Source: Streptacidiphilus carbonis
Lineage (GTDB): Bacteria; Actinomycetota; Actinomycetes; Streptomycetales; Streptomycetaceae
Reading direction: 5' to 3'
NCBI RefSeq assembly: GCF_000787775.1
Contig: NZ_BBPM01000020.1
Coordinates: 1 to 40,716, forward strand
Length of the DNA: 40,716 bases
The position numbers were made by a program, and so were the translations under genes. Shown in pieces: positions 8,284 through 37,210 of this stretch. Each line of letters begins with the position of its first letter. The first letter of the stretch is position 1. Below the pieces are notes generated by a model. The model was not told the origin of the DNA, made no database searches, and saw only the letters and a program-made list of their open reading frames with translations.

Positions 8284-9525
8284 ATGGCTGAGGCCACCAA
8301 CACGGCCGGTGGGTCGACCACGTCGGGCTCCATCGAGGTCGGCACCGCCGGCTCCGGCGCGCAACTGGCCGGACCCGGCACCGGGCGTGACACCGTCGCC
8401 GCCGTCCAGCCCGTCGACGCCAGGCTGGACGCCGTCGACTCCTACGACGTCGCCGACTTCCCGGTGCCCACCGGGCGCGAGGAGAACTGGCGGTTCACCC
8501 CGCTGAACCGGCTGCGCGGGCTGCACGACGGCAGCGCCGAGGCGACCGACGGCGCGGTCAAGGTCGACGTCAGCGCCCCCGCCGGGGTCGTCGTCGGGGC
8601 GCTGGACCGGAGCGACCCCCGGGTCGGGAAGGCCGGCAAGCCGGTCGACCGGATCGCCGCCCAGGCGTTCAGCAGCTTCGAGAAGGCCGGTCTGGTCTCG
8701 GTCCCGCGCGACACCGTGCTGACCGAGCCGATCCGGATCACCGTGCAGGGCCAGGGCGGTACCGGGTACGGGCACCAGGTGATCGAGGTCGGCGCCTTCG
8801 CCGAGGCGCTGGTCGTCATCGAGCACACCGGCGACGCGGTGCTGGCCGCCAATGTCGAGTACCTGATCGGCGACGGCGCCAAGCTCACCGTGGTCTCGGT
8901 GCAGGACTGGGACGACACCGCCGTCCACGTCGCCCAGCACACCGCGCTGGTCGGCCGGGACGCCTCGTTCAAGTCCGTGGTGGTCACCTTCGGCGGCGAC
9001 CTGGTCCGGCTGCACCCCCGGGTGGTCTACGGCGCGACCGGCGGCGAGGCCGACCTGTACGGGCTGTACTTCGCCGACGCCGGCCAGCACCTGGAGCACC
9101 GGCTCTTCATCGACCACGACACCCCGCACTGCCGCAGCAACGTCGCCTACAAGGGCGCGCTGCAGGGCAAGGACGCGCGGGCGGTCTGGATCGGCGACGT
9201 GCTGATCCGTGCCGCCGCCGAGGGCACCGACACCTACGAGCTCAACCGCAACCTGGTGCTCACCGACGGCGCGCGGGTCGACTCGGTCCCCAACCTGGAG
9301 ATCGAGACCGGCGAGATCGTCGGCGCCGGACACGCCTCCGCCACCGGCCGCTTCGACGACGAGCAGCTGTTCTACCTGCAGTCCCGCGGCATCCCGGCCG
9401 ACGAGGCGCGCCGCCTGGTGGTCCGCGGCTTCTTCGCCGAGCTGGTCCAGCAGATCGGCCTGCCCGAGCTGCAGGAGCGGCTGATCGAGCGGATCGACGC
9501 CGAGCTGGAGGCGACGGTCGCATGA
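8284..9525 (+). CDS. sufD: Fe-S cluster assembly protein SufD
   Basis: Paralogue of SufB that completes the SufBC2D complex and is needed for iron entry. The 413-residue protein has an N-terminal helical part (about 30-110, with FPVPTGREENWRFTPL typical of SufD) and a C-terminal beta-helix ending in GHASATGRFDDEQLFYLQSRGI, where SufB has [21 protein letters not shown]. The first about 40 residues are a Gly/Ala/Thr-rich tail. ATG 8284 follows a weak purine-rich site (GAGAGAGAG); the frame is open further upstream only as a shadow of sufB. Its stop overlaps the ferredoxin start (ATGA, 9522-9525). Confidence 0.96.
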   Translation: MAEATNTAGGSTTSGSIEVGTAGSGAQLAGPGTGRDTVAAVQPVDARLDAVDSYDVADFPVPTGREENWRFTPLNRLRGLHDGSAEATDGAVKVDVSAPAGVVVGALDRSDPRVGKAGKPVDRIAAQAFSSFEKAGLVSVPRDTVLTEPIRITVQGQGGTGYGHQVIEVGAFAEALVVIEHTGDAVLAANVEYLIGDGAKLTVVSVQDWDDTAVHVAQHTALVGRDASFKSVVVTFGGDLVRLHPRVVYGATGGEADLYGLYFADAGQHLEHRLFIDHDTPHCRSNVAYKGALQGKDARAVWIGDVLIRAAAEGTDTYELNRNLVLTDGARVDSVPNLEIETGEIVGAGHASATGRFDDEQLFYLQSRGIPADEARRLVVRGFFAELVQQIGLPELQERLIERIDAELEATVA

Positions 9526-22513: not shown

Positions 22514-23350
22514 TCACATTCCGGAGCCGACCGGTCGGAATCCCTCGGGCTGGACCGTGGTGAACGCCCCGCCGAGGTACCGGTACTCGGGTGTACCCGG
22601 CACCAGCGGGCCGTGCTCGGCGACCACGGATTCGGCGAAGGCCTCGGAGTCGTCCAGGGGTTCGTAGCCGAGGGCGCGGGCCGGGGCCAGGTCCCACCAG
22701 CCGCGGGTGTTGGCGCTGACGCCGTAGACGACGGTGTGGCCGTCGACGTCCGCGGTGAGGGCCGCGTGCATCAGCCGGGCGCAGTCGGCGGGGCTGAGCC
22801 AGGTCTCCAGCATCCGGGTGTCGGCCGGGACGGCGAAGCAGGAGCCGATGCGGATCGAGACCGTCTCCACGCCGTACTTGTCGGCGTAGAGGGAGGCCAG
22901 CGACTCGCCGAAGCACTTGGACAGGCCGTAGAAGGTGTCCGGCCGGAACGGCGTCCCGATCGGCAGGTCCTGCTTGCGGTCCTCGGGGTGCTCGGGGCGG
23001 GGGGTGAAGCCGACCGCGTGGTTGCTGCTGGCCAGCACCACCCGGCGGACGCCCTCGGCACGGACCGCCTCGTAGAGGTTGTAGGCGCCCTCGATGTTGG
23101 CGGCGAGAATGCGGTCGAAGGTGTTCTCCAGGGAGAGCCCGCCGAGGTGGATCACCGCGTCCACGCCGCGGACGGCCTCCTGTACCGCGTCCCGGTCGTG
23201 CAGGTCCACGGCGAGGGCCTCCGGCGCGCCCGGCACCGGGGCGATGTCGCTGAGGCGCAGCGCGTAGCCGTAACCGGGGAGGCTCTCGCGGAGGAAGGTG
23301 CCGACGCCGCCGGCGGCACCGGTCAGGAGTACATGGTGCGGGGTGGGCAT
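22514..23350 (-). CDS. udh: Uronate dehydrogenase (NAD-dependent)
   Basis: SDR-family enzyme that oxidises D-glucuronate or D-galacturonate to the aldaro-lactone, the first step of the oxidative uronate route. 278 residues. Rossmann motif G11-x2-G14-x2-G17 (LLTGAAGGVGTFL); catalytic Ser in VVLASSNHAVGF (108-113); Y141-x3-K145 in FYGLSKCFGE. The SSNH...YGLSKCFGE...RIGSC pattern and length match uronate dehydrogenase of Agrobacterium type (from memory). Divergent from kdgD, which acts two steps later. No terminator is seen before terD, so read-through is possible. A generic NAD-dependent epimerase is the alternative name, but less specific. Confidence 0.85.
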   Translation of the reverse strand: MPTPHHVLLTGAAGGVGTFLRESLPGYGYALRLSDIAPVPGAPEALAVDLHDRDAVQEAVRGVDAVIHLGGLSLENTFDRILAANIEGAYNLYEAVRAEGVRRVVLASSNHAVGFTPRPEHPEDRKQDLPIGTPFRPDTFYGLSKCFGESLASLYADKYGVETVSIRIGSCFAVPADTRMLETWLSPADCARLMHAALTADVDGHTVVYGVSANTRGWWDLAPARALGYEPLDDSEAFAESVVAEHGPLVPGTPEYRYLGGAFTTVQPEGFRPVGSGM

Positions 23351-23379
23351 CAGGCCTCCGAAGAAGATTGAACAAGAAT

Positions 23380-23434
23380 GTGGATCGCATTCACATATAT
23401 AGCTAGCCTAGGAGCGGCTGCATGATGCAGTCAA
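23380..23434 (-). promoter_or_regulatory. udh promoter and operator region
   Basis: Minus strand: -35 TTGACT (23434-23429), 18-bp spacer, -10 TAGGCT (23410-23405). The spacer holds a perfect 13-bp palindrome CTGCATGATGCAG (23418-23430), partly over the -35. A second inverted repeat, GTGGAT-CGC-ATTCAC (23380-23394, one G-T mismatch), lies downstream in the leader. The gap is shared with kdgD, so binding could control both directions. Confidence 0.55.
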
Positions 23435-23465: not shown

Positions 23466-24407
23466 ATGCCGGACCACGCCGTACCGCCCCTCGCCGACCG
23501 GCTGCACGGACTCCTCTTCTTCCCGGTGACGCCGTTCGCCCTCGACGGTTCGCTGGACCTCGACGTGCTCCGCACCCATGTCGCCGCCGGGGTCGCCGGC
23601 GGCGCGGGCGCGGTCTTCGCCGCCTGCGGCACCGGCGAGTACCATGCCCTCGACCTGGACGAGTACGAGGCGGTGGTCGCCGCGGCCGTCTCGGCGACCG
23701 GCGGCCGGGTCCCGGTGGTGGCCGGGGTCGGCCACGGTACCGCGCTCGCCAAGCAGTTCGCCGCCCGGGCCCGCCGGGCCGGCGCGGACGGACTGCTGGT
23801 GCTGCCCCCCTACCTGGTCAGCGCCGACCAGGACGGGCTGCTGCGGCACTTCGCCGCCATCGCCGCGGCGACCGACCTCGATCTGATCGTCTATCAGCGC
23901 GACAACGCCGTGCTCACCCCGGCGTCGGTGGTCGCGCTGTCCCGGCTGCCGCAGGTGATCGGCATCAAGGACGGCTGCGGCGACCTCGACCTGATGCAGC
24001 GGATCATCAGCGCGATGCGGACCGAGGCCCCGGACCGGCGCTTCCTCTACTTCAACGGCCTGCCCACGGCCGAGCTCACCGGCCTCGCCTACCGCGGCAT
24101 CGGCATCACCCTCTACTCCTCCGCGGTCTACTGCTTCGCCCCGGACATCGCCCTCGCCTTCCACCGGGCGCTGCTGGGTGGCGACGACACGCTGGTCAAC
24201 GCCCTGCTGGACGGCTTCTACCGGCCGCTGGTGGAGCTGCGGAACCAGGGACGGGGGTACGCGGTGGCGCTGGTCAAGGCGGGCGTGCGGCTGGAGGGGC
24301 TGGACGCCGGCGGGGTGCGGCCGCCACTGTCGGACCCGGCTCCGCAGCACGTCAAGGAGTTGGCCGAACTGATCGCCCGCGGGCGCGCGCTGCTCGCAGG
24401 CAACTGA
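23466..24407 (+). CDS. kdgD: 5-dehydro-4-deoxyglucarate dehydratase
   Basis: DapA-family aldolase-fold enzyme that dehydrates and decarboxylates 5-keto-4-deoxyglucarate to 2-oxoglutarate semialdehyde. 313 residues, usual length. Schiff-base lysine K168 in VIGIKDGCGD and Tyr143 in IVYQRDNA are in place; GTGEYHALDLDEYE is characteristic of KdgD. ATG 23466 has AGGAG seven bases upstream. It is followed 23 bp later by the unknown 381-residue gene, and its product is the substrate of the ALDH at 26595. The aldarate dehydratase that supplies its substrate is not in the window. Confidence 0.92.
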   Translation: MPDHAVPPLADRLHGLLFFPVTPFALDGSLDLDVLRTHVAAGVAGGAGAVFAACGTGEYHALDLDEYEAVVAAAVSATGGRVPVVAGVGHGTALAKQFAARARRAGADGLLVLPPYLVSADQDGLLRHFAAIAAATDLDLIVYQRDNAVLTPASVVALSRLPQVIGIKDGCGDLDLMQRIISAMRTEAPDRRFLYFNGLPTAELTGLAYRGIGITLYSSAVYCFAPDIALAFHRALLGGDDTLVNALLDGFYRPLVELRNQGRGYAVALVKAGVRLEGLDAGGVRPPLSDPAPQHVKELAELIARGRALLAGN

Positions 24408-24430: not shown

Positions 24431-25576
24431 ATGCGTACTTCTGCCTTCCTGTATCCCTGGGACGTCCTCGGCGACCCGGACGCCCCGGCCCGTATCGCCG
24501 ACCTGGGCGTGGACGCGGTCACCCTGGCCTCGGCGTACCACAGCACCCGGGCGCTGACCCCGCGTCATCCGCGGACCCGGATCGTCACGGCGCCCTACGC
24601 CGCGGTCTACTACCCGCCGTCCGAGGAGCTCTGGGCGGGACGGGCGCTGCGGCCGCGGCGGCAGCGGTGGATCGATGCCGAGGACGCCTGGGGCGAGGCG
24701 GCGGAGCGGTTGGCCGCGGTCGGCCTGGAGGTGGCCACCTGGGTGGTGCTGGCGCACAACTCCCGCCTGGGCGGGGAGAATCCGGACAGTACGGTGCTGA
24801 ACGCCTACGGCGACCGGTATCCCTGGGCGCTGTGCGTGGCACGTCCGGAGGTGGTCGAGTACTGCGCCGCACTGGCCGGGGAGGCGGGGGCGCGGCCGGG
24901 CGCGGTGGGCACGGAGCTGGAGTCCTGCGGGTGGTACGGGCTGGCCCATCTGCACGCGCACGACAAGATCGGCGGCGTAGGGCTGGACGCTGCGGCGCAG
25001 TACCTGATGTCGCTCTGCTTCTGCGAGGTGTGCTCCGCGGGGTATGCGGAGGCAGGGGTCCCGGATCTGGCGGGGGCGGTGCGGGCCGCGTTGGAGCCGG
25101 TGTGGGCGGGGCGGGCCGAACGCTTCGCTGACGAGTGGTCAGGGGTGGAGAAGCTGCTGGGCGCGGACCTCGCGGCGGTGACGCTGCGCCGGCGGAAGGA
25201 GCGGGCCCGAGCGGTGCAGCGGGCCTGTGTGGACGCGGTCCGGGGGGCGGCCGGGGCCGCGGGCGCGGCGGCGTTCTCGGTGCTGCTGCATGCGGACACG
25301 GCCGCGCACCGGGTCGGTGCGAACGTGGGGGTGGAGCCGGAGTGGCTGCTGGGGGAGGGCGGCGCGGACGGGCTGGTGCTGCCGTGCACGGGGACGCCTG
25401 CGGCGTTCCCGTCGATCCCGGGGCGGACGTACGCGGCGAACTTCACCGTGGTGCGGGGGATGGGGGGCGACCCTGCGGTCACGCCGCCTCCCGGGGCAAC
25501 GGAGTTGCGGCTTTACCATGCCGGGCTGGCCTCCGAAGAGGACCTTGCGGCGGTGCGGAGGAGCTTGCGACAGTAG
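24431..25576 (+). CDS. Unknown protein of the uronate cluster, GH-like
   Basis: 381 residues, no signal peptide, function unknown. The N-terminal 200 residues look like the front of a TIM barrel (FLYPWDVLG, DAVTLASAYHS, VATWVVLAHNSRLG), with acids at E162 and E164 in GTELESCGWYG and a C196-x-C198-x2-C201 cluster (CFCEVC), the pattern seen in the zinc site of family GH42 galactosidases; C135, C145 and C166 could add a fourth ligand. The second half is Ala/Arg-rich and helical. It is cotranscribed with kdgD (gap 23 bp, AAGGGG site). It could be an intracellular glycoside hydrolase that frees uronic acids, or a lactone/aldarate enzyme; neither is shown. Confidence 0.75.
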   Translation: MRTSAFLYPWDVLGDPDAPARIADLGVDAVTLASAYHSTRALTPRHPRTRIVTAPYAAVYYPPSEELWAGRALRPRRQRWIDAEDAWGEAAERLAAVGLEVATWVVLAHNSRLGGENPDSTVLNAYGDRYPWALCVARPEVVEYCAALAGEAGARPGAVGTELESCGWYGLAHLHAHDKIGGVGLDAAAQYLMSLCFCEVCSAGYAEAGVPDLAGAVRAALEPVWAGRAERFADEWSGVEKLLGADLAAVTLRRRKERARAVQRACVDAVRGAAGAAGAAAFSVLLHADTAAHRVGANVGVEPEWLLGEGGADGLVLPCTGTPAAFPSIPGRTYAANFTVVRGMGGDPAVTPPPGATELRLYHAGLASEEDLAAVRRSLRQ

Positions 25577-25705: not shown

Positions 25706-26482
25706 TCAGAGGTGCCGCGTAGCCAGCGTCAGCCGGTCCCGCGCGTCGAAGAGGGCGTCGCGGATCATCTGCTCGCGCCCCGGAGTCAGCCGGGCCACCG
25801 GGACCGAGCAGCTGACGGCGTCGCGGGCCGGGGTGCGGTAGGGGATGGCGATGCCGAAGCACCGCAGGCCGAGGGTGTTCTCCTCGGCGTCGACGGAGTA
25901 GCCGCGTTCGCGGATCGCGTGCAGGTCCTCGATCAGGGCGTCGATGTCGGTGTGAGTGTGCTCGGTGAGCGGCTCCAGCCGGGCCGGCAGCAGCTTGCGG
26001 ACCTCCTCGTCGGAGTAGCTCGCGAGCAGCGCCTTGCCCAGGGAGGTGGAGTGGGCCGGCAGCCGGCGGCCGACCCGGGTGAAGGGCCGCAGGTAGTGCT
26101 GGGACTGGCGGGTGGCCAGGTAGATGACGTCCGAGCCGTCGAGGCGGGCCAGGTGGATGGTCTCGGTGGTGTCGTCGGCCAGCCGGTCCAGGGTGGTCCT
26201 GGCGGCGGCCACGACCTCGTCGCCGTCGATGTAGGAGGTGCCGACCAGCAGCGCGCGCACGCCGATGCCGTAGCGGGTGCCGGTGGACTCGGTCTCGACC
26301 CAGCCCAGCTCGACCAGGGTGCGCAGCAGCATGTAGAGGCTGCTCTTGGGGTAGCCCACGGCCTCCTGCACCTCGGCGAGGCTGTGCATGCCGGGCCGGC
26401 CCGCGAAGTACTCGAGCAGTTCGACGGTGCGGACAGCCGACTTGACCTGGGCTCCGCCCGCGTCGGATTGAGGCTGGGCCAT
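25706..26482 (-). CDS. IclR-family regulator of uronate catabolism
   Basis: 258 residues. N-terminal winged HTH (about 14-75, SAVRTVELLEYFAGRPG ... AVGYPKSSLYMLLRTLVELGWV) and the C-terminal IclR effector domain (85-250, with TIHLARLDGSDVIYLA and SLGKALLA). Effectors of such proteins are often sugar acids or keto acids, so a uronate-derived acid is likely. Divergent from the ALDH gene, with two GTTCAGCATA repeats between them. ATG 26482 was chosen (AAGGGG nine bases upstream) over an extension to 26551, which would run through the operator region. Confidence 0.9.
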   Translation of the reverse strand: MAQPQSDAGGAQVKSAVRTVELLEYFAGRPGMHSLAEVQEAVGYPKSSLYMLLRTLVELGWVETESTGTRYGIGVRALLVGTSYIDGDEVVAAARTTLDRLADDTTETIHLARLDGSDVIYLATRQSQHYLRPFTRVGRRLPAHSTSLGKALLASYSDEEVRKLLPARLEPLTEHTHTDIDALIEDLHAIRERGYSVDAEENTLGLRCFGIAIPYRTPARDAVSCSVPVARLTPGREQMIRDALFDARDRLTLATRHL

Positions 26483-26523
26483 CTGGGTTGACCCCTTTTC
26501 TGTAAGAGACGTATCGTCAGAGT

Positions 26524-26558
26524 GTTCAGCATACTGGACGGCGTTCAGCATATGGAAT
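26524..26558. promoter_or_regulatory. Candidate IclR operator, two repeats 19 bp apart
   Basis: GTTCAGCATACTGGAC (26524-26539) is an imperfect palindrome of type GTTCA-N6-TGRAC; a second copy, GTTCAGCATATGGAAT (26543-26558), begins 19 bp later, about two helical turns. They lie between iclR and the ALDH gene. A matching palindrome is found at 37195-37210 before the polysaccharide lyase. Confidence 0.5.
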
Positions 26559-26594
26559 GCTTGCGCTCAAAGCTTGCGTCTGGAGGCGGCCCCA

Positions 26595-28106
26595 ATGAAC
26601 ACCACCCCAGTGTGGAGTGTCGATGCCCGTACCGGTGACCGTACGGGGCAGGTCGCGGTGGAGGCGGACACCGCAGCGGTCGCCTCGGCCGTACGGGCGG
26701 CCCACGCCGCGCAGCCCGCGCTCGGCGACCGCACGGTGCGCGCCGCCTTTCTGCGAGCCGCCGCGGACCGGCTGGAGGCGCACGGCGCGGAGTTGATCGC
26801 GACCGCCGACCGGGAGACCGCGCTGGGCACCGGGCGGCTGACCGGGGAGCTGGCCAGGACCACCTACCAGCTGCGCTCCTTCGCGGACATCGTGGACGAG
26901 GGCGCCTTCCTGGACGTGGTGATCGACCACGCCGACCCGCAGGCCGCGCCCGCGCCGCGGCCGGACCTGCGGCGCTGGAAGGTGCCGCTGGGGGTGGTCG
27001 GCGTCTTCGCCGCCAGCAACTTCCCCTTCGCCTTCAGCGTGCCCGGCGGGGACACCGCCAGCGCTCTCGCGGCCGGCTGCGCGGTGGTGGTCAAGGCCCA
27101 CCCCGACCACCCCGGCACCAGTGAGCTCGCCGCAGCGGCGCTGCGGGAGGCGGCCAAGGCGGTCGGGCTTCCCGCGGACGTGCTGGCGCTGGTGCACGGG
27201 CGCCAGGCCGGGGTCGACCTGGTCCAGCACCCGCTGCTGAGCGCGGCCGGCTTCACCGGCTCCATCCCGGGCGGCCGGGCCCTGTTCGACCTGGCCGCGG
27301 CACGCCCGGTGCCGATCCCCTTCCACGGCGAGCTGGGCAGTCTCAACCCGGTGGTGGTGACCGAGCAGGCCGCGGCCGGACGCGCCGAGGAGATCGGGGC
27401 CGGGCTGGCCGGCTCGTTCACCCTGGGCATGGGTCAGTTCTGCACCAAGCCCGGGCTGGTGCTGGTGCCCGAGGGGGCGAGCGGCGAGCGGCTGGAGAAG
27501 TCGCTGGCCGCGGGCGCGGCCGACAGCCCGTCCGGGGCGCTGCTGGACGCGCGGATGCGGGCCGGGTTCCTGGCCGGGTTCGCCGAGCGGGCGGCGCTGC
27601 CGGGGGTGACCGTGCCGGTGGCGGCCGGGGAGGACGGGTACGCGGTGCGCGCCGGGTACCTGAGCGTGGCCGCGGCCCGGCTCGCCGAGGACGCTTACGA
27701 GCTGCTGCTGGAGGAGTGCTTCGGACCGGTGACGGTGGTGGCCCGGTACCGGGACGCGGCGGAGGTGGAGGCGGTGCTGGCCCGCTTGGGCGGCAACCTG
27801 ACGGCCACGCTGCACGCGGAGCCGGGGGAGGCCGACGCCGCCGAACTGCTGGCGCGGCTGACGCCGCTGGCCGGGCGGGTGCTGTTCGGCGGGTGGCCTA
27901 CCGGGGTCGCGGTGGCGCCGGCCATGCAGCACGGGGGGCCGTACCCGGCCACCACCTCGACCGGGACGTCGGTCGGGGGGACGGCGATCGAGCGGTGGCT
28001 GCGGCCGGTGGCGTATCAGGGGGTGCCGGAGGGGTTGCTTCCGGTCGAGCTGCGGGACGGTGGGGTGGGCGTGCCGAGGCGGGTGGACGGGGTGTTGGAA
28101 CGGTGA
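26595..28106 (+). CDS. 2-oxoglutarate semialdehyde dehydrogenase
   Basis: 503-residue NADP-preferring aldehyde dehydrogenase of the KGSADH group (2,5-dioxovalerate dehydrogenase), which turns the KdgD product into 2-oxoglutarate for the TCA cycle. Catalytic C283 in MGQFCTKPGLVLVP and base E246 in HGELGSLNPVVV are the KGSADH-type versions of the ALDH motifs. ATG 26595 has GGAGG eight bases upstream; TTG 26574 is a weaker option. It is divergent from the IclR regulator and, with udh and kdgD, forms the end of the uronate pathway. Confidence 0.9.
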   Translation: MNTTPVWSVDARTGDRTGQVAVEADTAAVASAVRAAHAAQPALGDRTVRAAFLRAAADRLEAHGAELIATADRETALGTGRLTGELARTTYQLRSFADIVDEGAFLDVVIDHADPQAAPAPRPDLRRWKVPLGVVGVFAASNFPFAFSVPGGDTASALAAGCAVVVKAHPDHPGTSELAAAALREAAKAVGLPADVLALVHGRQAGVDLVQHPLLSAAGFTGSIPGGRALFDLAAARPVPIPFHGELGSLNPVVVTEQAAAGRAEEIGAGLAGSFTLGMGQFCTKPGLVLVPEGASGERLEKSLAAGAADSPSGALLDARMRAGFLAGFAERAALPGVTVPVAAGEDGYAVRAGYLSVAAARLAEDAYELLLEECFGPVTVVARYRDAAEVEAVLARLGGNLTATLHAEPGEADAAELLARLTPLAGRVLFGGWPTGVAVAPAMQHGGPYPATTSTGTSVGGTAIERWLRPVAYQGVPEGLLPVELRDGGVGVPRRVDGVLER

Positions 28107-28118
28107 CGACGAGGGGTG

Positions 28119-28146
28119 GGCTGGTCGCGCAGTTCCCCGCGCCCCT
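28119..28146 (+). repeat. Single-arm copy of the dispersed 28-bp repeat
   Basis: Matches the arm at 25579-25606 at 26 of 28 positions (TTGTCG versus TGGTCG, GCGGTT versus GCAGTT). It lies 12 bp past the ALDH stop but has no opposite arm here, so it cannot form the same hairpin. Confidence 0.75.
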
Positions 28147-28193
28147 TTCGTTTGCCTGGCTGAGGTGGGCGGGTCGGTGGCAGCATGATCTGC

Positions 28194-30785
28194 ATGCCTG
28201 CTCTTACTCGTGCTGAAGCCGTTGAACGCCGTCGACTGTTGGAGGTCCGCAGTAGCACTGTGGACCTCGACCTGACCCAGGGGGACGAGGTCTTCGGGTC
28301 GGTCGCGGTGATCCGTTTCGCCTGCTCCAGTCCGGGCGCGAGCAGCTTCGTCGACGTGAAGCCGCAGACCCTGCTGCGGGCCGTCCTCAACGGGCGGGAG
28401 CTGGACCCGGCCGCGCTGGTGGACGGGCGGCTCCCGCTGGACGGCCTCGCGGCGGAGAACGAGCTGCTGGTCGAGGCGACCATGGCCTACTCCCGCACCG
28501 GCGAGGGCATGCACCGCTTCGTCGACCCGGCCGACGGCGAGGCCTACGTCTACACCCAGGCGTTCCTGGACGACGGACCGCGCTTCTTCGCCAGCTTCGA
28601 CCAGCCCGACCTCAAGGCCGCCTACGAGGTGAGCGTCACCGCGCCCGAGGGCTGGACCGTCGTCGGCAACGGCCTGGTCACCCGGCAGGAGGGCGGCCGC
28701 TGGGAGTTCGCGCCCACGCCGCCGATCAGCAACTACCTGGTCGCCATCGTCGCCGGGCCGCTGTTCACGGTGCGCTCCGAGCACGACGGCATCCCGCTCG
28801 GCCTGCACTGCCGGCGCTCGCTCGGCCCGTACCTGGAGGCGGACGCCGAGGAGATGCTGGACACCACCCGGCGCAGCTTCGACCACTACCACCGGGTCTT
28901 CGACCAGCGCTATCCCTTCGACTCCTACGACCAGTGCTTCGTACCCGAGTTCAACGCCGGGGCGATGGAGAACCCCGGCTGTGTGACCTTCCGCGACGAG
29001 TTCGTGTTCCGCTCGGCGGTCACCGACACCGAGCGCGAGGAACGCGCCATCGTCATCGCCCATGAGATGGCCCACATGTGGTTCGGCGACCTGGTCACCA
29101 TGCGCTGGTGGGACGACCTGTGGCTGAACGAGTCCTTCGCCGAGTACCTCGCCTACACCGTGGTCGCCGAGTCCACCCGCTTCTCCGGCGCCTGGACCGG
29201 GTTCGCCGCCGCCCGCAAGTCCTGGGGCTACGACGCCGACCAGCGTCCGTCCACCCACCCGGTCGCCCCGGAGAGCGTGGACGACACCGCGGAGGCGCTG
29301 CAGAACTTCGACGGCATCTCCTACTCCAAGGGCGCCTCCGCCCTGCGCCAGCTGGTCGCCTGGCTCGGCGAGGAAGCCTTCTACAAGGGTGTCAACTCCT
29401 ACTTCCAGCAGCACGCCTTCGGCAACGCCGCGCTCGCCGACCTGCTCCAGGCGCTGGCCGCGAGCAGCGGCCGGGACGTGCACGGCTGGGCCGAACGCTG
29501 GCTGCGCACCACCGGGGTGGACACCCTGCGGGTCGAGCCGGCCCGGTCGGACGAGGCACGCGCGGACGAGGCACAGGCGGACGGGACCTGGGCGGGCGGG
29601 GCCGACGGGGGCCAGGAGGGCGTCGGCCGGGGCGGGGCGCGGATCGTGCACAGCTCGGTCGACGGCCAACTGCGTCCGCTGCTGATCACCGCGGCCACCT
29701 ACGACCGCGCCGCCGACGGCCACCTGGTGCTGCGGGCCCGCCGACCGCTGGACCTCCCGGCCGAGCCCGACCACGAGCTGGACAGCGTGGGCGCCGGCGA
29801 CCCCGATCTGCTGCTGCTCAACGACACCGACCTCGGCTTCGTCAAGATCCGCCTGGACGACCGCTCCTGGCGGACCGTCAGTGACTCGCTGGGCGGGATC
29901 CCGGAGGAGCTGGCGCGGGCGGTGCTGTGGGGCGCCGCCAGGGACATGGTGCGCGACGGCGACCTGGACCCGCAGAGCTACCTGGAGCTGGTCGCCGCCC
30001 ATCTGCCGGGGGAGACTTCGGCGCACCTGATCCAGTCGGTGCTCGGCTTCGCCCGGTCCACCCTCGCCGAGCAGTACCTGACGCCCGAGCAGCGCCCGGC
30101 CGGGCTGGGGCTGCTGGCCGGGGTCGGCCGGGACCTGCTGCGCCGGACCGAGGGCGGTCCCGACGACGTGACCGGGCTTCGGCTGCTCGCGGTCCGCAGC
30201 CTGATCGCGGCCTCCTCCACCCCGGCCGAGCTGGCCGTGCTGCAGTCCTGGCGGGAGGAGGGCGGAGTGCCCGGCGGGCCGGAACTCGACCCCGAGCTGA
30301 GCTGGCAGCTGCTCCTGCGGCTGTGCGTGCTCGGCGCGGCCGGCGAGGACGAGATCGCGGCCGAGCTGGTCCGGGACACCAGCGCCACCGGCCAGGAGGG
30401 CGCGGCCCGCTGCCGGGCGGCACTGCCCGACCAGCAGGCCAAGGACGCCGCCTGGGAGGCGCTGTTCGACAGCGACCTGTCCAACTACCTGATCGCCGCG
30501 ACCTCCCAGGGCTTCTGGCAGCCGGAGCAGGCCGAGCTGCTGGGCGACCGTCCGCAGCGCTACTTCGAGGCCGTGGTCGGCACCGCGCAGCGGCGCGGGC
30601 CCGCGGTGGGCCGGCTGCTGGCCCGCTACGCCTTCCCGGCCTACCACGCCACCGAGCAGACGGTCGGAGCCGCGGAGGCCTGCCTGGCCAGGACGGATCT
30701 CACGGCGGCGCTGCGGCGCGGACTGGTGGACCAGGTGGACGACCTGCGCCGCGCGGTGCGGGCCCGGCAGGCCGTGGCGAAGTGA
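28194..30785 (+). CDS. pepN: Aminopeptidase N (M1 family)
   Basis: 863-residue zinc aminopeptidase that removes N-terminal residues from peptides in the cytosol. Exopeptidase motif GAMEN (G256-N260), zinc site HEMAH-x18-E (H290, E291, H294), and the C-terminal ERAP1-like helical domain (about 500-860). The start is ATG 28194 (MPALTRAEAV); ATG 28185 is in frame but too early, and CATGAT at 28184-28189 suggests a leaderless transcript. Odd: an Asp/Ala/Gly-rich insert at about 450-485 encoded by 15-bp tandem repeats, between the catalytic and C-terminal domains. Its stop overlaps the next gene (GTGA). Confidence 0.96.
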   Translation: MPALTRAEAVERRRLLEVRSSTVDLDLTQGDEVFGSVAVIRFACSSPGASSFVDVKPQTLLRAVLNGRELDPAALVDGRLPLDGLAAENELLVEATMAYSRTGEGMHRFVDPADGEAYVYTQAFLDDGPRFFASFDQPDLKAAYEVSVTAPEGWTVVGNGLVTRQEGGRWEFAPTPPISNYLVAIVAGPLFTVRSEHDGIPLGLHCRRSLGPYLEADAEEMLDTTRRSFDHYHRVFDQRYPFDSYDQCFVPEFNAGAMENPGCVTFRDEFVFRSAVTDTEREERAIVIAHEMAHMWFGDLVTMRWWDDLWLNESFAEYLAYTVVAESTRFSGAWTGFAAARKSWGYDADQRPSTHPVAPESVDDTAEALQNFDGISYSKGASALRQLVAWLGEEAFYKGVNSYFQQHAFGNAALADLLQALAASSGRDVHGWAERWLRTTGVDTLRVEPARSDEARADEAQADGTWAGGADGGQEGVGRGGARIVHSSVDGQLRPLLITAATYDRAADGHLVLRARRPLDLPAEPDHELDSVGAGDPDLLLLNDTDLGFVKIRLDDRSWRTVSDSLGGIPEELARAVLWGAARDMVRDGDLDPQSYLELVAAHLPGETSAHLIQSVLGFARSTLAEQYLTPEQRPAGLGLLAGVGRDLLRRTEGGPDDVTGLRLLAVRSLIAASSTPAELAVLQSWREEGGVPGGPELDPELSWQLLLRLCVLGAAGEDEIAAELVRDTSATGQEGAARCRAALPDQQAKDAAWEALFDSDLSNYLIAATSQGFWQPEQAELLGDRPQRYFEAVVGTAQRRGPAVGRLLARYAFPAYHATEQTVGAAEACLARTDLTAALRRGLVDQVDDLRRAVRARQAVAK
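29548..29592 (+). repeat. 15-bp tandem repeats inside pepN
   Basis: Copies at 29548-29562 (CGGACGAGGCACGCG), 29563-29577 (CGGACGAGGCACAGG) and a diverged third at 29578-29592. They keep frame and add the DEARADEAQADG linker. Confidence 0.75.
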
Positions 30786-31948
30786 GCGCGGCGGCCGTGG
30801 GGGAGGCGGGCGCGCGGGCGGCGCAGCCCCTGCACGTCAGGGGACGGGTGCTGGTCGGGCCCGAGGACGTGCGGGACGAGCTCTGGGTGGTCGGCGGCCG
30901 GGTGACCTACTCCCGGCCGCCGGGCGCGGCCGAGGCCGTCGCGGTGGACGGCTGGGTGCTGCCGGGGCTGGTCGACGCGCACTGCCACGTCGGCCTGGAC
31001 GGCCATGGCGCGGTGGACGCGGCGACCGCCGAGAAGCAGGCGCTGACGGACCGTGAGGCCGGCGCGCTGCTGCTGCGTGACGCCGGCTCGCCGTCCGACA
31101 CCCGCTGGATCGACGACCGGGACGACCTGCCCCGGATCATCAGGGCCGGCCGGCACATCGCCCGTACCCGCCGCTACATCCGCAACTACGCCTACGAGAT
31201 CGAGCCCGGCGACCTCGCCGCCTACGTCCGGCAGGAGGCGCGGCGCGGCGACGGCTGGGTGAAGCTGGTCGGCGACTGGATCGACCGGGAGACCGGCGAC
31301 CTGTCGGCGTGCTGGCCGCGCTGGGCCCTGGACGAGGCGATGGCCGCCGCCCACGCCGAGGGCGCACGGGTCACCGCGCACTGCTTCGCCGAGGAGTCGC
31401 TGGTCGACCTGGTGGAGGCGGGGATCGACTGCGTGGAGCACGCCACCGGCCTCACCGAGGAGACGCTGCCGCTGTTCGCCGAGCGGGGCGTGGCGATCGT
31501 GCCGACCCTGGTCAACATCGCGACCTTCCCCGACATCGCGCTCGGCGCCGAGGGCAAGTTCCCCGACTACGCCCGGCATATGAGGGAGCTTCACCGCCGC
31601 CGGTACGCCACCGTGGCGGCGGCCCACGAGGCGGGCATCCAGGTCTTCACGGGCACGGACGCCGGCGGCTCGCTGGCGCACGGTCTGGTGGCCGACGAGG
31701 TCGCCGAACTGGTCGTCGCGGGGCTGCCGCCGCTGGCCGCGCTGGCGGCGGCGAGCTGGTCCGCCCGCGAGTGGCTGGGCCGTCCCGGGCTGACCGAGGG
31801 CGCCCCGGCCGACCTGGTCGTCTACCGCGAGGATCCGCGCGCGGACGTACGGGTGCTGGCGGATCCGCGGGCTGTGGTGCTGCGGGGCGCGGTGCTCGGC
31901 GGTTCAGTGGCAGGCGGTTCGGCGGCAGGCGGTTCAGCGGTGGGCTGA
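30782..31948 (+). CDS. Metal-dependent amidohydrolase
   Basis: 388-residue amidohydrolase-superfamily enzyme of the imidazolonepropionase/prolidase-like subgroup. Metal ligands: H67-x-H69 in DAHCHVGL, probable carboxylated K161 in WVKLVGDW, H200 in TAHCF, H220 in VEHATG and D293 in GTDAGG. Such enzymes split cyclic amides or Xaa-Pro dipeptides; the exact substrate is unknown, but coupling to pepN (GTGA overlap 30782-30785) points to peptide use. The start is the overlapping GTG. The C-terminal end is a low-complexity GGS-x-AG tail made by 15-bp repeats, and its last 15 bases overlap the convergent rhomboid-like gene. Confidence 0.88.
   Translation: MSAAAVGEAGARAAQPLHVRGRVLVGPEDVRDELWVVGGRVTYSRPPGAAEAVAVDGWVLPGLVDAHCHVGLDGHGAVDAATAEKQALTDREAGALLLRDAGSPSDTRWIDDRDDLPRIIRAGRHIARTRRYIRNYAYEIEPGDLAAYVRQEARRGDGWVKLVGDWIDRETGDLSACWPRWALDEAMAAAHAEGARVTAHCFAEESLVDLVEAGIDCVEHATGLTEETLPLFAERGVAIVPTLVNIATFPDIALGAEGKFPDYARHMRELHRRRYATVAAAHEAGIQVFTGTDAGGSLAHGLVADEVAELVVAGLPPLAALAAASWSAREWLGRPGLTEGAPADLVVYREDPRADVRVLADPRAVVLRGAVLGGSVAGGSAAGGSAVG
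31898..31942 (+). repeat. Three 15-bp repeats at the amidohydrolase 3' end
   Basis: GGCGGTTCAGTGGCA (31898-31912), GGCGGTTCGGCGGCA (31913-31927) and GGCGGTTCAGCGGTG (31928-31942), in frame, giving GGSVAGGSAAGGSAV. The third copy overlaps the stop of the convergent gene at 31934. Confidence 0.85.
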
Positions 31949-32647
31949 GCGGCGGCGCCGACTGCGCAACCAGGCGATCGGGTCCCAGCGCTCGCCCCGG
32001 CCGCGGGTCAGCGGGTAGCAGGCCAGGCCGAGCAGGGTGGCGGTGAAGTGGCCGACGTCGGTGAAGGTGCGGCCGTGCACCAGCGCGGAGCCGTACCAGA
32101 GCAGCACCCCCGTCAGGTAGACCCAGCGCCAGGGGCCGCCGATCCGGTAGAAGAGGATCCCCTGGATCCCGGCCAGCGCGTAACTGACGCCCACGTCCAG
32201 GGTGTTGACCGCCGACTCAGGTGCACGGCCCTGGTGGATGGCCCAGTAGAGGACGCCCTCGCTGATGTAGGTGGCGCCGACGTGGGCGATGGTCAGGGCG
32301 GTCAGCCAGCGCCAGGTCCCCAGCCAGCGCTCGGCGGGCACATGGAAGATGTTGTAGACCACGAAGTAGACGATCCACCCGCCGCCGTCCAGCCAGAACG
32401 CACTGGCGATCAGCACCCGCACCGGGTCGGTCGACAGCTGGTGCAGATTGGTCGAGCGCTGCCGGAGGAACTGGTCGTGGAACGCCGGATCCATCCGCCG
32501 GATCACCACGGTGGTCCCCAGCAGCGCCAGCAGCCACAGGTACGTCCCCGGCGCACGCCGCGCATAGGCCCAGGCAGCGGCCAACGCCCGGGCCGCGGGC
32601 TGCGGCGGCTCCGGGGCGGCCTCTGCTGGGGCCGACTGCGCATTCAT
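31934..32647 (-). CDS. Rhomboid-like integral membrane protein
   Basis: 237 residues with six or so hydrophobic segments, first at TYLWLLALLGTTVVI (35-49). Resembles the rhomboid fold: a Ser in GVSYALAG (S155) where canonical rhomboids have GxSG, and a TM6 His in VGHFTATLLGL (H200) with a following Gly. The GxS is retained but the second G of GxSG is Tyr, so protease activity is uncertain. The N-terminus is Pro/Ala-rich and cytosolic. ATG 32647 was chosen; a longer frame to 32695 has no ribosome site. CACAAT (minus strand) six bases before ATG suggests a leaderless mRNA. Converges with and overlaps the amidohydrolase. Confidence 0.82.
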   Translation of the reverse strand: MNAQSAPAEAAPEPPQPAARALAAAWAYARRAPGTYLWLLALLGTTVVIRRMDPAFHDQFLRQRSTNLHQLSTDPVRVLIASAFWLDGGGWIVYFVVYNIFHVPAERWLGTWRWLTALTIAHVGATYISEGVLYWAIHQGRAPESAVNTLDVGVSYALAGIQGILFYRIGGPWRWVYLTGVLLWYGSALVHGRTFTDVGHFTATLLGLACYPLTRGRGERWDPIAWLRSRRRRSAHR

Positions 32648-32711
32648 ACGACGATTGTGTCCTGGTTTGCGGAGTTTGTCGCGGACGTGGAGCACAGGGC
32701 CAGTGTGGCAT

Positions 32712-32728
32712 TAGAGTGACGGACCATG
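32712..32728 (+). promoter_or_regulatory. Leaderless promoter of ung
   Basis: TAGAGT at 32712-32717 lies eight bases before ATG 32726 and no ribosome site is present, as in leaderless transcripts. The -35 is weak. Confidence 0.45.
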
Positions 32729-33403
32729 GCCGCACGTCCGTTGCATGAAGTTGTCGAGCCCGGTTGGGCCAAGGCGTTGGAGCCGGTCGCCGGACAGGTG
32801 GCCGCCATGGGCGACTTCCTCCGGGCCGAGATCGCCGCCGGGAGGAGCTACCTGCCGCCGGGGCCGCAGGTGCTGCGGGCGTTCCAGCAGCCGTTCGAGC
32901 AGGTCCGGGTGCTGATCGTGGGTCAGGACCCGTATCCCACGCCGGGGCACGCGGTGGGGCTGTCGTTCTCCGTGGCGCCGGAGGTGCGGCCGCTGCCGGG
33001 GAGCCTGGTGAACATCTTCCAGGAGTACCAGCAGGACCTCGGACTGCCCGCGCCGGGCAGCGGCGATCTGACGCCGTGGACCGAGCAGGGGGTGTTGCTG
33101 CTCAACAGGTCGCTCACCACCGCGCCGCGCAATCCCAATGCCCATCGGGACAAGGGGTGGGAGGCGGTCACCGAGCAGGCGATCCGTGCGCTGGTGGAGC
33201 GCGGGCCGGCGCTGGTGGCCATTCTCTGGGGGCGTGACGCCCGCAACCTCCGCCCCCTGCTGGGGCCCGCGCCCTGCCTGGAGGCCCCGCACCCCAGCCC
33301 CCGGTCGGCGGACCGCGGCTTCTTCGGCTCCCGCCCCTTCAGCCGCGCCAACGAGCTGCTGGTCAGGCAGGGCAGCGAGCCGGTGGACTGGCGCCTGCCG
33401 TAG
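32726..33403 (+). CDS. ung: Uracil-DNA glycosylase
   Basis: 225-residue family 1 UDG that removes uracil from DNA for base-excision repair. Water-activating D68 in [12 protein letters not shown], the uracil-binding N in LLLNRSLT, and H189 in the [18 protein letters not shown] loop are complete. Start ATG 32726; the promoter hexamer TAGAGT stands just upstream. Divergent from the rhomboid-like gene. Normal length and composition. High-GC bacteria often carry more than one UDG type; this is the Ung type. Confidence 0.97.
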
Positions 33404-33640
33404 CGCATCGGGCGACGGTGCCGATTGACGGGCTCCGGGCCTGAACTGGTGGGACGGGGGCGACACCTGAGGTTCTGTCACTCATTCGGGTGAATGCACT
33501 CTGTGTGTCTCCAGAGTGACGCATGGTTCGTAAGGATAGGCCGCATCCAAGATTGCGTCCGGGCGCTCCGTAACTGGGGGTGAGCGCCCGGTGCTGTCCC
33601 GTTGCCGTCTGTGATCGACGAACATTTGTGGGGGCTCGTA
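33404..33640. other. Region between ung and the LAETG gene
   Basis: No gene. It holds a small inverted repeat CATTC-GGGT-GAATG (about 33483-33496), a hairpin CACTCTG/CAGAGTG (33497-33503 with 33512-33518) that may end ung, and a hairpin with perfect 10-bp arms 33559-33568 and 33582-33591, probably in the leader of the next gene. Confidence 0.45.
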
Positions 33641-34621
33641 ATGATGACTATCCGCCGCACCGGCTCCGCCCTCGGTGCCTTACTCGCCGTCTCCCTGCTC
33701 GCGGCGGCCCAGCCCGCCCATGCCGACGGCTCCGCGTGGGGGACGGCGTCAGCCACCACCGCCGGGCTGTCGCTGGACGTGAAACTGATCAACGGCGCCG
33801 TGGACGTCCCGGTGGACCTCACCTTGAACGCGGTGCACGCGCCCAGGAGCGTGGACGGGTCGATGCTGACCACCGCCATCGGCGGGGTCGACCAGGGGCG
33901 GAGACTGACCCTGCTGGACGCCACCCTCGGCCACAGCGCCGCCACCGTGGACGAGCACGGTGCGCATGCCGAGGTCGACCTGGTGCAAGCGGCGATCAAT
34001 GTCCCCGGGCTGCTGACCCAGCTGGTGGGGCTCAAGGAGGTGCACGCCACGGCGGACTGCCCGTTGGACGGTCGGCCCAGCGCGGACGTCAATATCCTCG
34101 GGACGCTGAACGTGCTGGGCCACGGGGTCTCGCTGAGCGCGGCCGGGCCGAGCAGGGTCAGCGTGCCCGGAATCGGGGTGGTGGACCTGGAGCTGTCCAA
34201 GAAGACGGTGACCTCGACCACGGCCGCCGCGACGGCGTTGGAGCTCGACGTCCAGGTGAATCCGCTGAGTCTGAATGTCGCCGAGGTGAGCGGGAGGATC
34301 GAGCTGGCGGCGGTGCACTGTGCCAAGGGGAAGGGCGGCGGGGGCGGCGGGGCGACCGGGTCGTCCGCGCCGTCGGGTCCGGCCTCCGGTCCGGGTGCGC
34401 CGAGCGGTTCCGCCTCGACGGGCGGGGCGGCGCTGCCCCCGCCATCGCAGGTGTCGGCCTCGGACTCCGCCGTGCCGGCCTCGCCTGCCGCTGCCACCAC
34501 CGACCTCGCGGAGACCGGTGGCGGCAGCAACACCCCGGTGATCGCCGGGGTCGCGCTGGTGCTGGTCGGTGCGGGCGCCGCGGCCATGGGGACGACCCGC
34601 AGGCGGCGGCGCCGGCACTGA
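33641..34621 (+). CDS. SCO1860-like LAETG-anchored surface protein
   Basis: 326-residue secreted protein, attached to the wall by a class E sortase. Signal peptide about 1-28 (ends QPAHA), a beta-rich globular part (30-240) with DVKLINGAVDVPVDLTLNAVHAP and Cys at two places (TADCPL and VHCAKG), a Gly/Ser/Pro stalk (about 240-285), sorting motif LAETG (289-293), hydrophobic segment, then an Arg-rich tail (RRRRRRH). It resembles the SCO1860 family, which sits next to cobalamin genes in S. coelicolor as it does here. ATG 33641 has GGGGG six bases before; ATG 33644 is possible. The globular domain's function is unknown. Confidence 0.88.
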   Translation: MMTIRRTGSALGALLAVSLLAAAQPAHADGSAWGTASATTAGLSLDVKLINGAVDVPVDLTLNAVHAPRSVDGSMLTTAIGGVDQGRRLTLLDATLGHSAATVDEHGAHAEVDLVQAAINVPGLLTQLVGLKEVHATADCPLDGRPSADVNILGTLNVLGHGVSLSAAGPSRVSVPGIGVVDLELSKKTVTSTTAAATALELDVQVNPLSLNVAEVSGRIELAAVHCAKGKGGGGGGATGSSAPSGPASGPGAPSGSASTGGAALPPPSQVSASDSAVPASPAAATTDLAETGGGSNTPVIAGVALVLVGAGAAAMGTTRRRRRRH

Positions 34622-34647
34622 GAGCCGGTGAGCAGGAGAGCAGGGGT

Positions 34648-37116
34648 TCAGGAGAAGTGCACCGTCCTGGTGGTGCCGGGGAGGCCCTGGGTGAGGTCGA
34701 GGGTGACCACCGGGGCGGTGCCCTTGAGGTCGACGGTGACGCCCGGGTCGTCGCTGAAGCCGCGACGGTAGCGGGCCCGGCCGCCGAGGGTGACGGTCAG
34801 TGAGGTCTGCGCGCAGGTGGGGTCGCTGACCGCCAGCGTCAGCCGGCCGCCGTGGCTCTGCAGCAGCACCGATGCCGGACCGCCGACGCCCACGGAGGGG
34901 AGGGCGCCGGCGGTGAAGAAGTTGGCAGCGGTGAGGTCGAGACGCGCGGAGCGGATCGCTTGCAGGGCCCGGGTGTTGGACAGGACGGTGAGGTCCGGTC
35001 GCCCCGCCCTGCGGGCGGTCTCCGCCGCGCTCGCCCCCGGCAGCAGCAGATAGACGTACCCGCTGCCGCCGGGGTCGACGCCGTGGTCGAGCCACAGGGT
35101 GGCGTAGGTGTTGGTGCAGGGCGTGGTGGTACCGCCGGTGCTGGGGCCGTTGTCGATGTCGGCCCAGGCGCCGGTGCGCTGCTCGCGCAGGGCGCGCAGG
35201 GTTGCCCCGGAGGCGGCCCCGGACGGGAGGATGTAGCCGCCGACGCCCTCAAGATGGGCCCAGCCCGAGGCGGCGAAGCTGCCGGACCAGCCCGGAGTAG
35301 TGGGTGTAGGACGGCCGTTGACGGTCAGTCTGTTGCGGCCCGTCGCACGCAGGTTGCGGTTCTCGATGGTGGTCTCCACCGGGTGGCCGGAGCTCCCGGT
35401 TATCCCCGCGCCGAGCGCGACCACGCAGTCGTCCAGGCAGAACCAGGACTTCTTGGCCCGCAGCGGCGAGCCGTAGGGGACCAGGTCCAGGCCGACCGCG
35501 CCCCAACTGCCGGCCAGTACGGCCCCGCCGGACCAGGTGGTGGGCGGCAGGGTGCCGTTGCCGGCGCTGGGGGCCAGCGGCAGGGTGTCGGCGGTGACCC
35601 CGGGCAGCCTGGTGCAGTCCACGGTGGGCCAGTAGGCGTCCGTGTAGTGGCCGTTGTCGTCGTTGTAGAGGTAGGTCGCGCCGTCGCCGGTGTGCCAGCC
35701 GCGCTGGTTCTCGCCGTTGATGGCCTCCAGCCGGGCGATCCGGCTGCTGGAGAGGCCCACCGTCCAGGCCCAGCCGGGGCGGCGGTGCACGGCACGTTCG
35801 ATCGAGGGCTGCTGGACGTGGTTCGGCCCCTGGCCCACCGCGTGCACCTTGGTGTCGTCCAGGACGGACTTCACCAGGGCCATCCGCGCGGGCGTGGCCG
35901 TGGCCCTGATGGTGGTGAAGGTCTCGCGTTCGATCCAGCCCTTGGCGAGCGCTTTCCAACGCCTCTGCTGGTCCCGCGAGCCGACCGGGATCAGCCGGAG
36001 CACCGCTTCGGTGATGGCGTGCCCGGCGTCGTGGTCGGTCTCGCCCTGTCGGGACAGGAAGCGGCCGCGGACCACGTCCATCACCAGGCCGTCGTACATG
36101 AACGGCGCGTAGGTGAGGTCCACCGAGTCCAGGATGACCGAGAACCGGGGGTCGTCGATGGGCCAGGCGGAGCCGTTGAGCAGCAGTGAGAGCTGGCTGA
36201 GGTCGTTCAGCAGGACGTAGGAGTAGTGGCCGTTGTAGGGGATGGTGCCGTGCTGGATGTAGCCGCCGTCGCGGTAGTAGCCGTCCGAGGCGGTGACGTA
36301 GGGGTAGATGTCGGAGAGCTTGTCGCGGCCGAGCGCGATCAGGGTGCCGTCCTTGGCCAGGATGCCGCGCAGGATGGTGATCTGGCACATGTCGGAGCGG
36401 TTGGCCCCGGTGGTGAGCACGGTGCCGGACTGCTGGTGGGTGGGGTCGGGGACGAAGTGGGCGACGGTGGCCAGGTAGCTGGCCAGGTCGGCGGCGGGGA
36501 CCTGGCTGCCCAGCACCGCACAGGTGTTGACCAGGGCCTGCGGGGCGCCGATCTCCCAGTGGTACCAGTTGCCCACCTCGGCGGAGGAGGGGTTGTAGTA
36601 GTCCGCGCCGATCAGTCGGAGCGCGGCGACCAGGCGGGCGGCGACGGCGGCGTCCTGGTAGTGGGCCGAGCCCGGGGTCCCCCAGGCGATGGCGGTGTCG
36701 CGGATCCGGTAGTAGGTGCCGCTGGCGTTCTCGACATGGGTGAACGGCAGGTCGGTGTAGACGGCGGTCGGGGTGGCGGAGTCGTCGTAGAGCGCGATGG
36801 CGGCGGCCGCGATGGCGTCGATGGTGGCGATGGCCGCCGCATAGTCGGGGTCGGTCGGGTCGACCGCGCTGCCGCCGGTGAGGATGTCCGACCAGACGCC
36901 GCGGAGTTGGTCGAAAGCGTCCGCGGTGGCGTCCGGGGCGGCGCCGGCAGGGGAGGCCGCCGCCGCAGTAGGGGTCGCGGCAGCGGCGGTCGGGGTCGCG
37001 GCGTGCGCGGGGCTCGTGCCGCCGACGCCGATGAGTGCGGCTCCGGTCACGGCGGCGCCGGCGCCGAGGAGGTGGCGGCGGCGCAGTGGTGCGGCGAGGG
37101 GCGTGCTGTCGTCCAT
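34648..37116 (-). CDS. Tat-exported family 8 polysaccharide lyase
   Basis: 822-residue secreted lyase of family PL8 (hyaluronate, chondroitin or xanthan lyase). Tat-type signal (LRRRHLLGAG, cut near AHA about 39), an Ala/Pro/Thr linker, an alpha/alpha-toroid domain (65-420) and beta-sandwich domains. The catalytic set N240, H290, Y299 and R353 has spacings +50, +59 and +113, the same as N349, H399, Y408 and R462 of pneumococcal hyaluronate lyase (from memory), so it should be active. It splits bonds next to uronic acid and leaves unsaturated uronates. ATG 37116 has GAGGA. Upstream is a GTTCA-N6-TGAAC palindrome shared with the uronate cluster. Confidence 0.93.
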   Translation of the reverse strand: MDDSTPLAAPLRRRHLLGAGAAVTGAALIGVGGTSPAHAATPTAAAATPTAAAASPAGAAPDATADAFDQLRGVWSDILTGGSAVDPTDPDYAAAIATIDAIAAAAIALYDDSATPTAVYTDLPFTHVENASGTYYRIRDTAIAWGTPGSAHYQDAAVAARLVAALRLIGADYYNPSSAEVGNWYHWEIGAPQALVNTCAVLGSQVPAADLASYLATVAHFVPDPTHQQSGTVLTTGANRSDMCQITILRGILAKDGTLIALGRDKLSDIYPYVTASDGYYRDGGYIQHGTIPYNGHYSYVLLNDLSQLSLLLNGSAWPIDDPRFSVILDSVDLTYAPFMYDGLVMDVVRGRFLSRQGETDHDAGHAITEAVLRLIPVGSRDQQRRWKALAKGWIERETFTTIRATATPARMALVKSVLDDTKVHAVGQGPNHVQQPSIERAVHRRPGWAWTVGLSSSRIARLEAINGENQRGWHTGDGATYLYNDDNGHYTDAYWPTVDCTRLPGVTADTLPLAPSAGNGTLPPTTWSGGAVLAGSWGAVGLDLVPYGSPLRAKKSWFCLDDCVVALGAGITGSSGHPVETTIENRNLRATGRNRLTVNGRPTPTTPGWSGSFAASGWAHLEGVGGYILPSGAASGATLRALREQRTGAWADIDNGPSTGGTTTPCTNTYATLWLDHGVDPGGSGYVYLLLPGASAAETARRAGRPDLTVLSNTRALQAIRSARLDLTAANFFTAGALPSVGVGGPASVLLQSHGGRLTLAVSDPTCAQTSLTVTLGGRARYRRGFSDDPGVTVDLKGTAPVVTLDLTQGLPGTTRTVHFS

Positions 37117-37194
37117 GCGTGCGTCCTCGGTGACGTGGGGTCAGGTGAAGACATGACAGACCCGCTGCCGACCCGAGTCAAGATGCTGGACAAA

Positions 37195-37210
37195 GTTCAA
37201 GGATATGAAC
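37195..37210. promoter_or_regulatory. GTTCA-N6-TGAAC palindrome upstream of the lyase
   Basis: Perfect 5-bp arms around AGGATA, in the 114-bp gap between the lyase (-) and cobC (-), 79 bp before the lyase ATG. It is the same type as 26524-26539 in the iclR/ALDH gap. A minus-strand TTGAAC overlaps it. Confidence 0.45.

Follow-up and report, generated by a model that had tools for sequence, protein, structure and literature searches.

Paired palindromes in a stretch of Streptacidiphilus carbonis DNA (the window, 40,716 nucleotides of a host genome, G000, of 8.46 Mb) are probably tandem operators of the IclR-family protein encoded at 25706-26482, through which uronan lyases, import and the oxidative uronate route would be joined. 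Their sequence and their conservation in related genomes suggest that one repressor may jointly control how uronic-acid polymers are broken down and used. Control of two loci of the window by a single IclR protein had been proposed in a first-pass annotation of this DNA on the basis of two palindromes; the idea is well supported by the tandem architecture and its conservation, with IclR as the predicted binder. Both loci indeed share the element, but the membership appears larger than the two loci proposed.

The gene order in the window is udh, kdgD1, an ORF without known family, iclR, an aldehyde dehydrogenase gene, a peptidase gene and others, and finally a gene for a polysaccharide lyase of family 8 (PL8):

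22514-23350, minus strand: udh, uronate dehydrogenase homologue (PDB uronate dehydrogenases 3rft and 6mfh, E 3e-72 to 8e-64)
23466-24407, plus strand: kdgD1, 5-dehydro-4-deoxyglucarate dehydratase (NF002958 above cut-off; KdgD equivalog TIGR03249 under its cut-off)
24431-25576, plus strand: ORF of 381 residues without known family, between kdgD1 and iclR
25706-26482, minus strand: iclR, IclR-family regulator and proposed binder of the elements (Pfam PF09339 and PF01614)
26595-28106, plus strand: aldehyde dehydrogenase, proposed 2-oxoglutarate semialdehyde dehydrogenase (PF00171; PDB relatives 1eyy and 3v4c)
34648-37116, minus strand: secreted PL8 lyase (PF08124, PF02278 and PF02884 above cut-offs)

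The regulator is assigned to the IclR family by PF09339 (56.9 bits) and PF01614 (129.4 bits), both above their cut-offs; it falls short of the KdgR equivalog NF011671 (132 bits versus a cut-off of 275) and of the BhcR equivalog NF045644 (171.8 versus 350). The nearest PDB structures of the PL8 product are chondroitin AC and xanthan lyases. By homology, the genome contains candidate genes for an oxidative uronate route: udh, two kdgD genes, a glucarate dehydratase homologue (gudD) and the aldehyde dehydrogenase, whose proposed substrate is deduced from the neighbouring genes.

Architecture of the tandem element

The two palindromes first reported, GTTCAGCATACTGGAC at 26524-26539 in the iclR/aldehyde dehydrogenase gap and GTTCAAGGATATGAAC at 37195-37210 in the PL8 upstream gap, are present at these places. 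Their outer arms, described as identical, are so if R is allowed: the site at 37195-37210 has perfect arms, but the one at 26524 has one mismatched arm pair (GTTCA/TGGAC). The accompanying claim that no other GTTCA site in the window fits is contradicted by GTTCACCCCGCTGAAC at 8493-8508, an exact match, which is located in coding DNA, inside a SufB/D-domain ORF, and probably arose by chance. The single motif GTTCA-N6-TGRAC has 56 distinct exact matches in the 8.46 Mb, about 0.3 per 40.7 kb, so it is uninformative by itself and was dropped as evidence.

Each reported palindrome is accompanied by a further site at a 19-bp period, so that the layout is 16-3-16; the additional sites are GTTCAGCATATGGAAT at 26543-26558 in the iclR/aldehyde dehydrogenase gap and AGTCAAGATGCTGGAC at 37176-37191 before PL8. 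The predicted operator is thus a tandem pair, and not a single palindrome as initially suggested, the reported palindromes representing one half each. For its detection a 20-point score was used, corresponding to two RTYCA-N6-TGRAY sites with a 3-bp spacer; in the window two places score 19 and one scores 16, all of them in gaps beside uronate genes:

23370-23404, plus strand: weak tandem element between udh and kdgD1, 16/20
26524-26558, plus strand: predicted tandem operator in the iclR/aldehyde dehydrogenase gap, GTTCAGCATACTGGAC-GGC-GTTCAGCATATGGAAT, 19/20
37176-37210, minus strand: predicted tandem operator before PL8, read toward PL8 as GTTCATATCCTTGAAC-TTT-GTCCAGCATCTTGACT, 19/20

The score was designed after the iclR/aldehyde dehydrogenase element had been seen, so it is the PL8 element that constitutes the test. 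When the window was resampled 200 times with a first-order Markov model, at least 17 was reached in two resamplings and at least 18 in none, and with spacers of 0-29 other than 3 no place in the window scores at least 17. Genome-wide, a partner scoring at least 9/10 at the tandem distance accompanies three of the 56 single-motif places, the next best partner scoring 7; these are the iclR/aldehyde dehydrogenase gap, the PL8 gap and contig C97, position 11208, before a second kdgD with gudD, all of them preceding uronate genes. A looser tandem pattern built from these sites (up to two mismatches) recovers these three places across the genome; its reversed control finds none. The genome-wide scan proposed earlier as a check on the motif gives a divided answer: the single motif is common, but its tandem form is nearly unique and precedes uronate genes. 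Elsewhere in the host genome, over 270 kb picked mostly for carrying the single motif, a score of 16 occurs at every spacer (2-31 per spacer); weak lone elements therefore count only when conserved.

The centres of the paired sites are 19 bp apart at both elements. In its main text, a survey of the IclR family records tandem sites in 94 ortholog groups, the distance between centres being 18-22 bp; a separation of roughly two helical turns is consistent with IclR proteins binding as tetramers (Suvorova and Gelfand 2021, PMC8222616). The subgroup with the NGT-12-ACN motif described there resembles the present case in having palindromes with GTYC/GRAC arms and tandem sites, and sugar-acid and dehydrogenase genes are frequent in its regulons; however, uronate, hyaluronate and polysaccharide lyases do not appear in that main text (PMC8222616).

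Conservation at the two promoters

Conservation of the palindrome in related species, raised earlier as a further check, is found for the tandem form at both promoters. On the iclR side, 25 IclR proteins were considered (the S. carbonis protein and 24 relatives with at least 79% identity): the element scores at least 16 in 24/25 of the loci and at least 17 in 19/25, the exception, L025, scoring 15. The exact motif reported in this gap is present at 12/12 loci within the genus and at 0/13 outside it. Over 17 rows, mean identity is 0.91 for the half-sites of the second site, 0.68 for those of the first and 0.30 for the flanks (the identity means of this comparison, and of that at PL8 below, leave out the near copies L032, L033, L002 and L003; L017 and L019-L023 are not among the iclR-side rows). 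The half conserved across the family is the previously unreported site at 26543-26558. At four more distant loci, L026, L028 and L029 of another family and L027, the iclR homologue and kdgD are transcribed away from each other, and the gap separating them contains a tandem scoring 17-20; locus L030 also carries a tandem, scoring 19.

The PL8 element scores 17 to 19 in 9/9 orthologs (eight plus one from Kitasatospora), and the exact single motif is found before PL8 in four of eight. In seven divergent rows identity is 0.93 for the half-sites, 0.50 for the cores, 0.35 for the spacer and 0.28-0.34 for the flanks; the right half of site 2 doubles as the -35 box, and site 1 by itself still gives 0.93. 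None of 22 loci with more distant PL8 paralogs or fragments (L039-L060) scores at least 17. PL8 lies 0.2-23 kb from iclR in all eight genomes considered; in Streptacidiphilus pinicola (G001) and S. fuscans (G003) the two genes are immediate divergent neighbours, and the gap between them contains both elements.

Profile models reveal both a common part and a difference between the two promoter classes. R1, built from 24 iclR-side elements of relatives, recovers the iclR-side element of the window in the genome with E 8e-7 and gives the PL8 element a weak 5.2 bits; R2, built from eight PL8 elements of relatives, recovers the PL8 element with E 1.5e-7 and gives the iclR side a weak 5.8 bits. In these genome searches neither model recovers the element of the other class, so what the classes have in common lies in the half-sites and in how they are spaced; sequence alone does not prove cross-recognition. 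A third model, R3, is partly circular, having been trained on all groups with the elements of the window included; in the genome it places the three strong elements on top (E 6e-4 to 2e-3, the next at 0.3). Over 12 related genomes it returns 30 rows for 27 distinct sites, 25 of which are at the three expected promoters (10 of the 25 outside the training set, some of them near copies), the remaining two preceding genes for PL7 and PL5 lyases. At the level of gene content, 25 of the family's 37 genomes have both an iclR relative (at least 56% identity) and kdgD (E up to 1e-40), 11 have neither, and one (G035) has iclR only.

Further candidate members

The third strong element, GTTCAGTAAACTGAAT-CCA-GTTCATGAACATGAAC, immediately precedes the second kdgD (kdgD2), which is followed by gudD; it scores 20 in 7/7 orthologs, that of S. 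carbonis included, and is retained in L136-L138, where the upstream sequence, judged by eye, appears different. Directly upstream of kdgD2-gudD on C97 (L130:6511-8122) are genes for a KDPG/KHG aldolase and for a GntR/FCD regulator; given this adjoining gene, a second regulator may act there. The udh/kdgD1 gap, whose element scores 16 in the window, reaches 17 in G004 and G011, and in G013 (17) and G009 (18), which lack kdgD1 there, udh and the family-less ORF flank a similar element; udh/kdgD1 probably belongs to the regulon. Other kdgD loci (L140-L162) score at least 17 in 12/23 cases and below that in 11/23.

Import could be included through a sugar porter gene (PF00083, on C132), in front of which an exact match to the single motif, GTTCAGGGATATGAAC, is paired with a weaker site. 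A tandem scoring at least 16 is present within 420 bp in all 15 porter upstream stretches, that of S. carbonis included. A stretch of about 9.5 kb in G001 and of about 11 kb in G003 contains the porter, kdgD, iclR and PL8 genes, and the porter gene adjoins that of an IclR homologue of 43-46% identity in six genomes of genus g19. Uronate would be the porter's substrate.

Another candidate encodes a second type of lyase:

L131:8146-8925 (contig C131), minus strand: PL7 alginate-lyase-family gene (PF08787), with a tandem scoring 18 directly before it

Its close orthologs have a tandem of at least 16 or a perfect palindrome in 12/15 cases, that of S. carbonis included and L221 counted as a miss, since its upstream stretch is probably misplaced (the match starts at residue 31); the site is present at none of 10 distant PL7 homologues. 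In L218 and L219 a second perfect palindrome (GTTCACGTTTGTGAAC and GTTCACATCTCTGAAC) lies about 250 bp upstream of PL7 and perhaps serves the next gene. In G015 a model match precedes a PL5 alginate lyase gene (PF05426). Finally, on C58 (L132:15391-15806), a tandem of 17/20 stands just before the gene of a secreted protein cut by the contig end; this protein has no family or structure match and may resemble GH79 enzymes.

Proposed regulation and fate of the lyase products

The regulon would thus comprise iclR itself, the dehydrogenase, PL8, kdgD2-gudD, the sugar porter and PL7, and probably udh/kdgD1, and would connect secreted lyases for uronans with import and with oxidative breakdown to 2-oxoglutarate. 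IclR binding, repression and response to an effector are what we infer from the sequence: the tandem sites, with centres 19 bp apart, would face the same side of the helix, each element would be occupied by two IclR dimers, and the protein would leave its operators in response to an intermediate formed when uronate or aldarate is broken down. The position of the dehydrogenase operator relative to a promoter-like sequence is as follows:

26488-26517, plus strand: promoter-like TTGACC-N18-TATCGT for the dehydrogenase, with the operator beginning 6 bp past the -10

Since the operator begins just past the -10, bound IclR would block initiation or early elongation. TTGACC-N18-TANNNT is found at 10/19 loci on the dehydrogenase side; the others are partial, with none credible in L008 and L025. 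In the PL8 promoter it is the -35 box, TTGACT, that the operator covers, and IclR bound there would keep RNA polymerase out.

A different action at PL8 is conceivable, since some IclR proteins activate: within the same regulon, the near-gene site, around -35, would sit where class II activators usually bind, with a poor -10 for which TGTCAT at 17 bp is the only candidate. We regard activation as unlikely, because TTGACT is near the -35 consensus and kept in 9/9 orthologs, and because the dehydrogenase operator, downstream of its -10, suits repression; polymerase exclusion is the likelier role of the PL8 element. Less probable still is that the elements are real IclR-type operators on which different IclR paralogs, or the GntR/FCD protein beside kdgD2, act separately, with no single regulon. 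A first look at the genome yields 28 IclR-family candidates, which would fit such a division, as would the GntR/FCD gene upstream of kdgD2 and the weak cross-scores of R1 and R2; however, only one other IclR protein of the genome reaches E 1e-30, with 38% identity, the two species with PL8 divergent from this iclR also have porter, kdgD and PL8 clustered with it, and the kdgD2 element persists despite the differing upstream sequence of L136-L138 (by eye). That the two palindromes are alike by chance, as a single-site pattern occurring 56 times might suggest, is hardly credible, being opposed by the tandem architecture with its resampling and spacer controls and already contradicted by half-sites conserved between unconserved flanks.

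Two known systems come close to the proposed one. GylR of Streptomyces clavuligerus is an IclR-family repressor acting at its own and at a catabolic promoter, and it is reported to interfere with initiation at one of them and with elongation at the other; unlike the present case, it controls a glycerol regulon through an 18-bp palindrome (PMC9732521). KdgR of gamma-proteobacteria, which controls the pectin and galacturonate regulon, is similarly an IclR-family regulator of uronan degradation, but its listed motif has GAAAC/GTTTC arms. The KdgR regulon serves the isomerase route and not the oxidative one. Operator type and regulator family are already known; a literature search, covering mainly non-subscription main texts, returned no IclR regulon for uronate, hyaluronate or lyases in Streptomycetaceae, and the regulon for uronic-acid polymer use may be new. 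It would provide a testable regulon for this use in Streptomycetaceae and a likely role for an unnamed IclR protein, and it predicts co-regulation of an importer and several lyases.

The fate of the lyase products becomes a direct experimental question. PL8 enzymes give unsaturated uronyl products, which are normally opened by GH88/GH105 hydrolases; none of these is found above the Pfam cut-off in the host genome, and the pathway listed above takes saturated uronates, so the metabolic link from PL8 to the pathway is not closed. A tentative and rather doubtful reading is that in Streptacidiphilus and its relatives one IclR ties PL8, PL7 and PL5 lyases to the oxidative uronate pathway without GH88/GH105, the products entering by an undescribed step or acting mainly as inducer. 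The ORF at 24431-25576, which has no match in Pfam or NCBIfam, is a candidate that could supply a missing step of the uronate route; its homologues hold the same place in G013, G009 and G001.
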